The notes under the pieces were generated by a model. The model saw only the letters and a program-made list of their open reading frames with translations, had not been told where the DNA came from and did no database searches. Source: a virus. From it: 26,009 bases of DNA. The stretch is from positions 1 to 26,009 of the IMG/VR virus record IMGVR_UViG_3300037502_000050; one strand, 5' to 3'. Both the position numbers and the translations under genes were made by a program. Numbering within the stretch: the stretch's first letter is position 1; every line of letters starts with the position of its first letter. This document shows positions 2,828 through 6,300 of this stretch, piece by piece.

Positions 2828-3181
2828 TTATCTATGTCCATTGTAACCTGCCTGTTTAAGCAGATCGACCCAGAGTTGCGCTGGCATTACTGCATACGAC
2901 TCTGAGACATTTGTAGTGCCACGCTTTTTTATTAGCACCACTCCAGTCTCGGCATCTGCATGAGTCATTTCATTGTCTAACTCTTTCAGATACCCAGAGA
3001 GATCTATCTTCTTTTCATTCTTACATTCTACTACAACACCATCTATCCCATCAATATCCCCAACATCATCATGGCGACCAGCACCATACGCCCGCTCAGC
3101 ACAAGGGAAACCATTAGCGACTAACCACTTGGCTACATCACGCTCATACTGTGAGCCTTTGCGTTTACTTGGTGTTGACAT
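2828..3181 (-). CDS. PD-(D/E)XK nuclease, Holliday junction resolvase-like
   Basis: A 117-aa protein with the small resolvase-type PD-(D/E)XK layout: an N-terminal basic helix with the first acidic residue (KRKGSQYERDVAKWL, E13), then GDIDGI (D42) and VVECKN with the E52-x-K54 pair. Size and order of motifs fit archaeal-Hjc-like and phage resolvases or VRR-NUC-type nucleases, which cut branched or single-strand-containing DNA. The ATG at 3181 is preferred over a GTG at 3187 because most relatives start close to the KRKGS motif. It overlaps the WhiB gene end by 17 bases and is followed by a short 38-base gap. With endonuclease VII also present, the block carries at least two candidate junction nucleases. 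The substrate is inferred. Confidence 0.75.
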   Translation of the reverse strand: MSTPSKRKGSQYERDVAKWLVANGFPCAERAYGAGRHDDVGDIDGIDGVVVECKNEKKIDLSGYLKELDNEMTHADAETGVVLIKKRGTTNVSESYAVMPAQLWVDLLKQAGYNGHR

Positions 3182-3440
3182 AATCACTTACCAATATTTG
3201 TTGGACAATCATGTTACGTTTCTTTCTGATTCGCATTCTTTCTCTTGGTGAAGTACCACCCCAAATACCAAACGATTCATGAGCAAGACCCCAATCTAAA
3301 CAAGCTTGCATTACTGGACACTCTTTACAAAGTGCTTTAGCTTTCCGTTCTTCACTACTAGATGCAGTGCTGTGTTCTTGGAAAAAAAATTCTAAACCGA
3401 TACCTCTGCATGTTGCACTAGTGAAGTCTGGATATTTCAT
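3165..3440 (-). CDS. WhiB-family (Wbl) iron-sulphur transcriptional regulator
   Basis: A 91-aa protein with all hallmarks of the WhiB family, which is restricted to Actinobacteria and their phages. The four cysteines that bind a [4Fe-4S] cluster are C11, C38, C41 and C47 (CKECPVMQAC). They are followed by the G[I/V]WGG turn (GIWGGTSPRER, 58-68) and a basic tail (RMRIRKKRN) expected to contact DNA. Wbl proteins usually act by binding region 4 of the primary sigma factor; phage members are known to alter host division and superinfection, as WhiB of mycobacteriophage TM4 does. The gene starts inside the end of the upstream nuclease-like gene (23-base overlap), with GAGG about ten bases before the ATG. 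It could switch host or late phage transcription. Confidence 0.95.
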   Translation of the reverse strand: MKYPDFTSATCRGIGLEFFFQEHSTASSSEERKAKALCKECPVMQACLDWGLAHESFGIWGGTSPRERMRIRKKRNMIVQQILVSDYVNTK

Positions 3441-3939
3441 CGACGAGTACCTCTATTGGTTGTAGTTGATTAGCGTCCATTACTAACCGAGTGCCGTAAC
3501 CATAGTCATGCAAGTAATGATTAGCAAGAAAATTTTCTCGTGTTGTCCAACCAATTACATCAAATAAACTATCCACATGTGGAAGTTGTTTATCCCCAGA
3601 AAATTTTACAAGTACGGCTACATCTGAAATAAATAATTCTGGTGCATTAAATATTAATTGCGGTAGTGTCGACGTCTTAACCTGTATAGATCTTCCCAGT
3701 AACGTCTGGAGGTCGTGTCCGTTATCACCGCCAGGCGCAATCGAGTCATCCGTCGGTAACCCAAGGACCCTAGAACACGCCACCTCACCCAACCTACCCA
3801 TAAGATTAACGGAATACGAGGAATTATTTTTATCAAACTTACGATCCGTAACATCAAACTCCTTCTTGTTCTGTCTTACCCTGTGGATAAACCTAAGTGA
3901 ATCCATGATCTCATCTTCAGTTAATTCTATTACTGCCAT
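3418..3939 (-). CDS. Putative PD-(D/E)XK-fold nuclease-like protein
   Basis: A 173-aa protein of uncertain family. The middle shows a pattern resembling restriction-endonuclease-fold proteins: GRLGEVACSRVLGL (E52), then GGDNGHDLQTL (D76), then GRSIQVKTS, where Q86-x-K88 could stand for the usual (D/E)xK. The C-terminal half (FISDVAVLVKFSG, FDVIGWTTRENF, YGYGTRLVMDANQL) looks like the beta-rich continuation seen in such domains. It lies between the helicase and WhiB genes in the replication block and overlaps both neighbours. It may be a recombination or host-DNA-degrading enzyme, but the active-site Gln makes activity uncertain. Overall a nuclease-fold protein is the best guess. Confidence 0.55.
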   Translation of the reverse strand: MAVIELTEDEIMDSLRFIHRVRQNKKEFDVTDRKFDKNNSSYSVNLMGRLGEVACSRVLGLPTDDSIAPGGDNGHDLQTLLGRSIQVKTSTLPQLIFNAPELFISDVAVLVKFSGDKQLPHVDSLFDVIGWTTRENFLANHYLHDYGYGTRLVMDANQLQPIEVLVDEISRLH

Positions 3940-4763
3940 TGTCGCATAGTCCTTGCTCTAGCCAACTCAGCAGGTGAGTTATATAAACTCATATGACTTG
4001 GTTCAACAGATAAAGTTACATAGTTCTCTGCAGTTGGATCAGCCTTACCATGGCGATTCTTTACAACTGCTACTCGATACACATTACCAATAGCATCTAA
4101 CGCTACACTCAATACCAATTCAGGTAAGGCTGACACCTTACCCATTAAAGCTTTACGTGGTGCTGGGTAGTTAGGCTTAGACATCTTTTCATTTTCAGAT
4201 ACATGGTGCAGAACTATGAATGCTGATTCATATTCTCTAGCCATGTAGTGAAATGCAGACATTGCATCACGCAATGCTGTCCACTCATTGTCGCTGACTG
4301 CAGCGACGTTCATTAAGTTATCAATATAAATTGCTGATGGTGGAGCACCGTGCAATTCAATCCAAGCTTCGATCTCTTCTTCAATGTCTTGCAAAGAAGG
4401 AGACGGATCAAAACTAAAACGAATATGTGCAGCACCATCAGCCAGTGCATCCTCTAGGAGGACGGATGCCTCCGAGTCCATCATTCTTTCCACATCAGTT
4501 ACTGATCTATCCATAAGGATCGCACCTGCACGAAGGGCAATCGTTCGAGAATCAGAGTCTGCTGAAAAGTATAACGCTGGAGTCTTGGATGTAATTGCGT
4601 ACCATAAAGCAAGCATGGTCTTACCACCACCTGGTTGTGCTGCTACCAAGTGTAGTTGTGCCTGACGGAATACAACTTGGTTACCAGTGAGTTGAGGAAG
4701 AATCTCAGGAAGGGCATGCCCTGCTGGAGATTCGACTCCTACTACCTGCAATAAGGTACGCAT
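3930..4763 (-). CDS. DnaB/RecA-like replicative helicase ATPase
   Basis: A 277-aa RecA-fold ATPase similar to the C-terminal motor of DnaB helicases and RepA/GP4-type phage helicases. Walker A is AQPGGGKT (42-49), Walker B is AIYIDNL (144-150), preceded by a stretch with LYFSADSDS. A later FIVLHHVSENEK (182-193) matches the DnaB H4 region that couples ATP hydrolysis to DNA. The N-terminal primase-interacting domain of full DnaB is lacking; the first 35 residues form only a short lead-in. It probably unwinds the fork together with the two primase pieces at 2082-2411 and 709-1353. Start ATG 4763 is three bases after the upstream stop (TAATCCATG). A recombination ATPase of the RadA type is the main alternative. 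Confidence 0.85.
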   Translation of the reverse strand: MRTLLQVVGVESPAGHALPEILPQLTGNQVVFRQAQLHLVAAQPGGGKTMLALWYAITSKTPALYFSADSDSRTIALRAGAILMDRSVTDVERMMDSEASVLLEDALADGAAHIRFSFDPSPSLQDIEEEIEAWIELHGAPPSAIYIDNLMNVAAVSDNEWTALRDAMSAFHYMAREYESAFIVLHHVSENEKMSKPNYPAPRKALMGKVSALPELVLSVALDAIGNVYRVAVVKNRHGKADPTAENYVTLSVEPSHMSLYNSPAELARARTMRQWQ

Positions 4764-4766
4764 GGA

Positions 4767-5216
4767 TTACTTAGTCCAGATTGTTTCGGCTTCGACTGCG
4801 CCTACTGTAAATGGCTTTGGTCCTTTAGCAGGATCAAACCAACCTACGTATGCTTTGCCAGCCTTGCTAGTACCCTTCTTCTTGGCGTACTTGCCACGAC
4901 CATCTGGTAGATCAGGAGCATCTGGATGTCCATATGTCCATTCATTACCATACTTGTCTTTAACTACTTCAATAGAAGTAGGACCAGAACTAACTACGGT
5001 TGGATTTAATCCACCATTAGATAAAGCTTGTACTGCCTTATCCATTGATGTCATACCACCACGACCACCAAGTGCGGTCTGTAGTTCTGTTGCTGCTTTG
5101 ATTGCCTCAATAGCAGCCATCATGTTAGTAGCAAACTCTTCAGCACTATCACCTCGGACAGTGAATAGGTCTGTGCTGTTTAGTTTACCTGTATATGAGA
5201 ACTTAGATTCAGTCAT
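4767..5216 (-). CDS. Unknown replication-block protein, possibly single-strand DNA-associated
   Basis: A 149-aa protein between the Cas4-like nuclease half and the helicase. I recognise no domain. The N-terminal part is beta-like (KFSYTGKLNSTDLFTVRG) followed by an Ala-rich helix (FATNMMAAIEAIKAATELQTAL), a Gly-rich linker, and a C-terminal segment with aromatic and basic residues: YGNEWTYGHPDAPDLPDG, then KYAKKKGTSKAGKAYVGWF. The aromatic/Lys pattern and the position between exonuclease and helicase would suit a single-strand DNA-binding or annealing accessory protein, but this is only context. The gene starts one base from the upstream stop, with AAGGA about ten bases upstream, and is clearly expressed with its neighbours. 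Confidence 0.7.
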   Translation of the reverse strand: MTESKFSYTGKLNSTDLFTVRGDSAEEFATNMMAAIEAIKAATELQTALGGRGGMTSMDKAVQALSNGGLNPTVVSSGPTSIEVVKDKYGNEWTYGHPDAPDLPDGRGKYAKKKGTSKAGKAYVGWFDPAKGPKPFTVGAVEAETIWTK

Positions 5217-5894
5217 CTACGTTCGTCCTTTCTTTCCCTTTGTTGTTGGTATTTGCAGTGGGAAATCTTTACTGCCCATCGCTGGGCATTTATCTTGGAA
5301 CGAGCACATCCGACATGAATCACCTACGGATGGTGGAAACCATCCGTTCAATACCGAATGGTTCATTGCACCAAATACATAATCAAAATAATCTATTGTT
5401 AGGTGCGACAGATCTATAAGATCGTCAAGCGTACCTTGTCTAGTCATAAAGAATGCACCCCACTTAGGGCGTACACCTAAAGCTTTTTCAATACCAGATG
5501 CATACAAGCCTGCTTGTATCATGCCAAATGGTGTCCTAGAACCTGTCTTGTAATCAACGATTACCAAGTCTTCCCCCACTTGGTAAATCGCATCTACAAT
5601 AAAGCGAACTGGTGTTCCCCCGAAGTGAACATCAGCAGCCCATTCGATTCCAGGACGACCATCGGGCATCGTAGCAATTTTCCAACCAGATGACTCATAC
5701 CATTTCTGATAAGCCTCAACCTGCTTGAGTCCATCACTTTGCCAGAATGATAGATCTTCTCCGTCTGGACGCAAGGTGGTCTTACGTCCAGCCGTCTTCC
5801 ACTCTATCGAGGGAATACCAGATTTCTCTTCGACTTCCTTGACGGCATCATTAAATACCTCAAGCCACTTCTGTGTCAAATCAATCGAGGTCAT
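5217..5894 (-). CDS. C-terminal half of a split Cas4/RecB-type PD-(D/E)XK nuclease
   Basis: A 225-aa protein carrying the catalytic and cluster-binding C-terminal part of a Cas4/RecB-like exonuclease. Motifs (numbered from the ATG at 5894): FWQSDGLKQVEAYQKW (50-65), VDAIY with D101, VIVDYKTG with D114 and K116, then the Q127-x3-Y131 motif (QAGLY), and a terminal C194-x2-C197-x5-C203 followed by Pro. These are three of the four [4Fe-4S] cysteines of the family. The fourth cysteine and motif I (His/Glu) are missing here and are encoded at 6074-6265. The ATG is chosen over GTG 5900 because AGAGG lies five bases upstream. The likely role is 5'-end resection of DNA in recombination. It overlaps the zinc-ribbon gene by 14 bases. 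Confidence 0.88.
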   Translation of the reverse strand: MTSIDLTQKWLEVFNDAVKEVEEKSGIPSIEWKTAGRKTTLRPDGEDLSFWQSDGLKQVEAYQKWYESSGWKIATMPDGRPGIEWAADVHFGGTPVRFIVDAIYQVGEDLVIVDYKTGSRTPFGMIQAGLYASGIEKALGVRPKWGAFFMTRQGTLDDLIDLSHLTIDYFDYVFGAMNHSVLNGWFPPSVGDSCRMCSFQDKCPAMGSKDFPLQIPTTKGKKGRT

Positions 5895-6105
5895 CGTCAC
5901 CTCTAATGTAATCTGGATTATCCACAGGGGTAGGTGCTGTCATAGGCGAACCGCAGTTCGCACAGAAGGAATCAAGAAACCACATAACCAATTCATAATC
6001 TTGGAATATTGCACGGATGACCTGTATGTTTGAGCCACAGTTGATACACTCATTGCTTGGTATACCACGTTGATCAATTGTCAAGTTGCTTCTTGTAAAG
6101 CTCAT
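5881..6105 (-). CDS. Small zinc-ribbon protein between the two nuclease halves
   Basis: A 74-aa protein with two CxxCG knuckles, C20-x2-C23 (ECINCGSN) and C48-x2-C51 (FCANCGSP), the usual layout of a zinc ribbon with about 24 residues between the knuckles. The tail is acidic (NPDYIRGDDDLD). The ATG at 6105 has GGAG ten bases upstream, lying inside the N-terminal nuclease half (32-base overlap); the end overlaps the C-terminal half by 20 bases. It is out of frame with the upstream half at their overlap. No catalytic motif is seen. The location suggests either a protein that bridges or regulates the two nuclease pieces, or an inserted gene that split a once continuous nuclease gene. Zinc binding is inferred from the cysteines. 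Confidence 0.75.
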   Translation of the reverse strand: MSFTRSNLTIDQRGIPSNECINCGSNIQVIRAIFQDYELVMWFLDSFCANCGSPMTAPTPVDNPDYIRGDDDLD

Positions 6106-6265
6106 GGTTCAACCACTCCAACATGGAGTGAACCGCAGAACCAGCAGCAAGATATACTGCAGGCTTCTCTGGAACCATAGCCACTTTGCTTAGATAGTAT
6201 TTTTGTGGACAGGATTGCCAAGTAGATAACTGGCTATAAGATCTATGAGGGGGAAGTTCGTTCAT
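6074..6265 (-). CDS. N-terminal piece of a split Cas4/RecB-type nuclease
   Basis: A 63-aa protein that reads as the first quarter of a RecB/Cas4-family nuclease. It has the family opening SYSQLSTWQSCPQKYYL with C19 as the lone N-terminal cluster cysteine, then AAGSAVHSMLEWLNHEL, where G42-x3-H46-x3-E50 is motif I. The protein stops shortly after, whereas family members continue for over 200 residues; that continuation is encoded at 5217-5894. Together the two pieces (63 + 225 residues) make a normal-sized enzyme. The start chosen is the ATG at 6265: no ribosome site precedes it, but a promoter -10 lies six bases upstream, so it is probably translated from a leaderless message. It is the first gene of the replication block. 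Confidence 0.83.
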   Translation of the reverse strand: MNELPPHRSYSQLSTWQSCPQKYYLSKVAMVPEKPAVYLAAGSAVHSMLEWLNHELYKKQLDN

Positions 6266-6271
6266 GCTAAA

Positions 6272-6300
6272 ATAATAAACCAAGATACTGACAATCTCAG
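6272..6300 (-). promoter_or_regulatory. Putative leaderless sigma-70-type promoter of the replication block
   Basis: On the minus strand, CTGAGA (6295-6300) is followed by a 17-base spacer and TATTAT (6272-6277). Six bases later comes the ATG of the nuclease N-terminal piece (6265). The -10 matches five of six consensus bases and the -35 four of six. The distance puts the likely transcription start at or next to the A of the ATG, and no Shine-Dalgarno is present, so the message would be leaderless, which is common in Actinobacteria. It would drive the whole leftward block to position 1 and beyond. Prediction from pattern only. Confidence 0.55.

Follow-up and report, generated by a model that had tools for sequence, protein, structure and literature searches.

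Phage enzymes encoded in pieces are already known. As set out in PMC2988022, the pieces of Aeh1 NrdA and of gp43 of Aeromonas phage 25 (the DNA polymerase of gene 43) are functional and have been shown to form active enzyme, those of T4 topoisomerase (gene 60) probably are functional, and such splits are mostly linked to homing endonucleases. Among Fe-S nucleases, the domains of AdnA, AddB, Dna2, Cas4 and ACE1 each unite motif I with the D-x-K core on a single chain. The single-chain actinophage Cas4/RecB exonucleases (Mycobacterium phage SWU2 gp68; phrog_1870, phrog_69) have the fold family, the motif order, four cysteines and a downstream DnaB-like helicase gene in common with the locus described here, but are encoded by one uninterrupted gene of ~264 aa, and the loop at which the lake phages split contains a Met in these proteins.

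The locus lies in a 26,009-nt stretch of viral DNA (IMG/VR record IMGVR_UViG_3300037502_000050, positions 1–26,009; hereafter the window), where motif I and the D-x-K core are found in two genes. What is new is thus not a split phage enzyme but a split Cas4/AddB-type (Cas4/RecB) nuclease, of which a limited search of the open-access literature found no description. The same limited search turned up no account of the three-gene form seen in the window, in agreement with the initial annotation, which knew of none.

Two genes for one predicted nuclease

Three overlapping open reading frames occupy the minus strand, with all motif residues where the initial annotation had placed them. The N piece (6265–6074, 63 aa) holds the first helices of a Cas4/AddB-type nuclease, the first Fe-S cysteine (C19) and motif I (H46, E50). 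The C piece (5894–5217, 225 aa) holds D101, D114-x-K116, Q127-x3-Y131 and Fe-S cysteines 2–4 (C194-x2-C197-x5-C203). Between them lies Z (6105–5881, 74 aa), a zinc-ribbon-like gene with C20-x2-C23 and C48-x2-C51. Z overlaps N by 32 nt (6074–6105) in the +1 frame relative to N, and the Z/C overlap spans 5881–5894, the ATG of C starting 11 nt ahead of the first base of the Z stop codon. The next gene of the presumed operon (4767–5216, minus strand) encodes a 149-aa product with no match in family scans; it is followed by a DnaB-like helicase gene of the replication module (3930–4763, minus strand; phrog_243, E = 3.9e-75). Elsewhere in the phage's replication half, the minus-strand frame at 1549–2109 matches the HslV peptidase family (phrog_1040, E = 4.2e-26), its match to Proteasome being weak.

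The suggestion that a Cas4/RecB-type nuclease is divided between two genes was borne out by profile comparison. N and C cover consecutive parts of both Pfam PDDEXK_1 (profile positions 3–53 and 89–247) and the phage exonuclease family phrog_1870 (positions 11–67 and 75–293). Apart, the pieces score 31.9 and 31.5 bits against PDDEXK_1; joined, they align end to end (3–247 of 247) with 64.7 bits against a cut-off of 22, and with phrog_1870 they give an end-to-end alignment of 231 bits. The complete RecB/AddB/Cas4-type motif set runs in order across the two pieces (motif I H and E, D...D-x-K, QxxxY), as had been claimed for the locus, and the cysteine pattern of an Fe-S 'staple' is present as one N-terminal Cys (C19) and a C-terminal C-x2-C-x5-C. 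From these matches, which lie far beyond chance, N and C are predicted to be successive parts of one Cas4/AddB-type PD-(D/E)XK exonuclease. The four cysteines could hold Zn in place of an Fe-S cluster, by analogy with a Zn-binding example at such a site discussed in PMC3466216.

Because the joined pieces score under the curated cut-off of the CRISPR Cas4 equivalog TIGR00372 (41.1 bits against 65; SWU2, 54.3 bits), we take the enzyme for a relative of Cas4, predicted to work as the nucleases of that family do, and not for a CRISPR Cas4. Among the scanned window genes, family scans found no Cas protein besides the nuclease. No match to the exonuclease region was found by blastn in phage records. 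Two scans of bacterial and archaeal genomes, the first of them weak owing to its very degenerate patterns, returned no relative, so there is no prophage or host link from that source. N also matches near the 3' part of phrog_31737, a 146-position 'exonuclease' family that may include other N-terminal pieces.

The reading we favour, and regard as very likely on the sequence evidence, is a two-chain 'genes-in-pieces' exonuclease with Z as an independent gene in the gap. A recombination/replication exonuclease of the Cas4/AddB (Fe-S PD-(D/E)XK) type would be encoded as two pieces, N giving the first helices, staple cysteine 1 and the motif I H and E, and C giving the catalytic D...D-x-K core, QxxxY and cysteines 2–4. 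One transcript would yield both chains through coupled, overlapping translation, and the chains would assemble into one nuclease, with its break in a surface loop that follows the helix of motif I. Z would have entered a gap that was already there or that formed at the same time.

Conservation and expression of the pieces

Searches of families and contigs established the three-gene form as conserved, as the initial annotation had supposed. Of the 80 contigs that C recovered from IMG/VR, 77 hold both N and C, and all 77 have the trio in the same three frames, with an N-to-C gap of 173–194 nt that is always 2 modulo 3. N-Z-C is present in every complete relative examined of this trio clade (69 unique N+C pairs). 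In a second phage clade the gene is split likewise but Z is missing (74 unique pairs in direct overlap); a few members of that clade carry another gene, Y, in the gap. The fetched loci comprise 225 with a gap of 100–300 nt (Z), 140 with direct overlap, 13 with a gap above 300 nt and 52 intact genes; these counts are redundant, as one contig may recur, and reduce to 147 unique N+C pairs (69 with Z, 74 direct, 4 long-gap). C occurs without N only at contig-edge loci. The locus thus has what defines genes in pieces: its pieces are conserved, complement each other and correspond to a single unbroken gene in relatives.

Across the 147 unique pairs and the window, and in all three gap types, C19, G42, H46 and E50 of N and E84, D101, K116, Q127, Y131, C194, C197 and C203 of C are invariant. 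The sole exception among the tested catalytic and cysteine positions is D114, which is V in one sequence. This invariance across the break is the strongest evidence that the N and C products act jointly, and it speaks for the proposal that an active site and a four-Cys site are common to two chains. Outside the overlaps, the median dN/dS values of N, Z and C in the trio clade are 0.023, 0.064 and 0.109, and those of N and C in the direct clade are 0.065 and 0.111; each frame is strongly held by purifying selection.

These data bear directly on whether the pieces are decaying pseudogene fragments or products of assembly or sequencing error, an explanation to which we give practically no weight. 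One trio-clade contig (L255:700–1564) does have an in-frame stop within C, where the GEDLVIVD region reads G-stop-DLVIVD, and may be an inactive copy or contain a sequencing error; this contig is one of the 13 loci with a gap above 300 nt, yet a trio member. Against that single case stand the recurrence of these frames in two sequenced isolates and numerous independent contigs, dN/dS values far below 1 and the invariance of the active-site residues. Error or decay is ruled out by the recurrent frames, the constant N-C offset and the purifying selection. The initial annotation had seen its reading as overturned by uninterrupted relatives together with an error in this window: such relatives do exist among mycobacteriophages and among phages of Gordonia, Streptomyces and Cutibacterium, yet the sequence of the window is free of error at this locus.

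How the two chains would be made can be read in part from their start sites. The C start is ATG in 69 of 69 unique trio-clade loci, lies at −11 from the Z stop in 67 of them and is preceded by a Shine-Dalgarno (SD)-like site in 62. In the window, the corresponding AGAGG (5900–5904, minus strand) stands 5 nt upstream of the C start codon; a GTG at 5900 offers an alternative start, and the ATG at 5894 is the one kept in relatives. All 74 direct-clade loci likewise start C with ATG, at −5, −8, −11 or −17 from the N stop, and SD-like sites number 11, a scarcity that fits termination-reinitiation. Upstream of N, a −10-like box (TATTAT, 6272–6277, minus strand) lies 12 nt from the N start codon. In 51 unique trio-clade upstream sequences, TANNNT was counted 45 times at position −12 or −13 relative to the ATG of N, where chance would give ~1.3 per position. 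This excess suggests that the transcript is leaderless and begins at N.

A continuous N-C or N-Z-C enzyme could in principle arise if ribosomes underwent programmed +1 frameshifts, one in the two-gene clade and two across Z in the trio. The direction required never varies (+1 from N to Z, from Z to C, and from N to C where Z is absent), and the reading frames always overlap. Yet no unique trio or direct-overlap locus lacks a separate ATG for C, and 62 of 69 trio loci add an SD-like site; the spread of ATG positions in the direct clade leaves no fixed shift site; and in four loci (L198, L226, L232, L374) other genes separate N from C by 320–930 nt. We hold frameshifting to be improbable, and favour separate coupled genes because C has its own conserved ATG, mostly with an SD-like site in the trio clade. 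Low-level frameshifting may still yield some fused form where the genes merely overlap.

Occupants of the gap

Two CxxC knuckles, whose cysteines are invariant in 26 aligned homologues, and a conserved PTP motif mark the sequence of Z, which matches zinc-ribbon families weakly. Its sequence gave chance-level matches only in the PDB, and an AF2 model of Z alone was poor (pLDDT 45.7). Across 214 loci the Z start codon is ATG in 198, GTG in 12 and TTG in 4. Two loci, L017 and L022, have the Z ATG changed to ACG, a change silent in N; the next start is a TTG 21 nt downstream, so Z is shortened or unusually started there.

The gap is not always filled by Z. In OX376641, an unannotated record, N (L082 2790–2975) and C (2959 or 2965 to 3567) overlap directly. 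This is Planktophila phage LanE43AprF5 (F5). PMC10202952 describes two lytic phages cultured on 'Ca. Planktophila' LanE-43, of which F5 is one; in the other, E7 (OX376640, a record likewise unannotated), N and C are arranged as in F5. Both are split at the same place as the window but, unlike it, have a gap without Z. The exonuclease goes unmentioned in the main text of PMC10202952, as far as that text was available.

Other long-gap loci, part of the direct clade, carry Y, a plus-strand gene of ~105 aa with a Lys-rich start and a probable coiled coil. Y stands alone in a gap of ~320 nt in three loci (L226:2664–3008, L232:2658–3002, L374:2176–2502); in a fourth, with a gap of ~930 nt, it (L198:2039–2365) is followed by a second plus-strand ORF of ~200 aa before C (L198:2349–3014), which is present in three contigs. 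Y has no clear family match and is unrelated to Z. The gap thus holds Z, Y, Y plus one ORF, or nothing, and no homing endonuclease was found at the break, Z and Y matching no endonuclease family. The genes-in-pieces enzymes Aeh1 NrdA, T4 gene 60 and gene 43 likewise consist of conserved pieces of one enzyme, assembly being predicted in the present case. Their breaks hold homing endonucleases or untranslated spacers, whereas here, in a Cas4-type nuclease, there is nothing, a zinc-ribbon gene or Y.

These varied inserts also count against removal of the intervening DNA before or after translation, as by an intron, intein or bypass element. The pieces are contiguous in the profile, as removal would have it, but between 4700 and 6900 every RNA family stayed below its gathering score, and selection acts on the insert as a protein-coding frame in its own right. 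We consider removal highly improbable.

The initial annotation had further taken the zinc-ribbon gene to be the likely cause of the split and perhaps a subunit or regulator. Neither part found support: in a second large clade and in two cultured phages the split comes without an insert, and other members have an unrelated gene in the gap. As a true third subunit or regulator, Z would bridge or target the split nuclease. It is always present in the trio-clade gap and is strongly conserved (its dN/dS, invariant cysteines and PTP motif), and its overlap with both N and C would equalise synthesis. The split enzyme nonetheless occurs without Z or with Y in its place, and a Z profile recovers a distant stand-alone homologue in F5 and E7 (E = 2.6e-5), ~5 kb from the exonuclease genes and, in F5, on the opposite strand from them. 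In F5 this homologue (L446:26775–26951, plus strand) adjoins a transglycosylase-like gene and an FmdB-like zinc-ribbon ORF, both named by eye. The results of the Z scan overlap those of the C scan, and the loci concerned have no Z outside the gap.

Because the split occurs without Z or with Y, and F5 and E7 have a stand-alone Z homologue, we see in Z a likely passenger that came into the gap from elsewhere, and not a subunit the enzyme needs. A role for Z within the trio clade is possible, but we think the subunit reading unlikely. A broader version, which we find more doubtful still, would make the split functional and not neutral: N, Z and C would form a three-chain nuclease that the zinc ribbon targets or switches, and the gap would be an evolutionary socket for differing control subunits (Z or Y).

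The break site and its significance

As a single-chain stand-in for the fold we modelled L320, an intact homologue identical to the SWU2 protein, with AF2 (pLDDT 91.7, pTM 0.88), and aligned it with other intact proteins and with split C pieces. In structure comparisons, which included Foldseek, the model matched Fe-S nuclease domains along almost all of its residues (AdnA, Z 17.3 over 229 residues; ACE1, 16.9; AddB, 14.8; Dna2, 13.7; Cas4, 13.5). Helices 41–56, containing motif I (H48, E52), and 63–84 flank a loop at 57–62. Placed by alignment of motif I and of the restart, the lake-phage break is modelled to fall at or beside this loop, after the motif I helix.

Intact genes occur in Mycobacterium, Gordonia, Streptomyces and Cutibacterium phages; that of Cutibacterium phage CAP 6-3 (L318:2264–3193) is unannotated. 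A Met stands at position 61 in 25 of 28 intact proteins, and the residues that follow resemble the trio-clade C start (MSLQAMQQVF versus MSLTEKWLEVF). We infer that one frame-disrupting change at the loop would have left two overlapping frames and a ready start codon. In the tree, good support attaches to the trio clade and to the direct/Y clade, and less to the intact group (33/41), with long branches; this topology is compatible with a single split shared by both clades as well as with separate ones.

The locus appears, from its genes, to encode a natural two-chain Cas4/AddB-type nuclease in which metal staple and active site are both completed across chains. Phage gene callers and annotation can overlook such enzymes if the pieces are called separately, and the gap contents indicate that small genes are able to invade a split gene without a visible homing endonuclease at the break. 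Strong selection maintains the split across a family of freshwater (lake) actinophages that is widespread and infects abundant freshwater bacteria, and the two cultured phages provide a ready system for how split enzymes assemble and why they persist.
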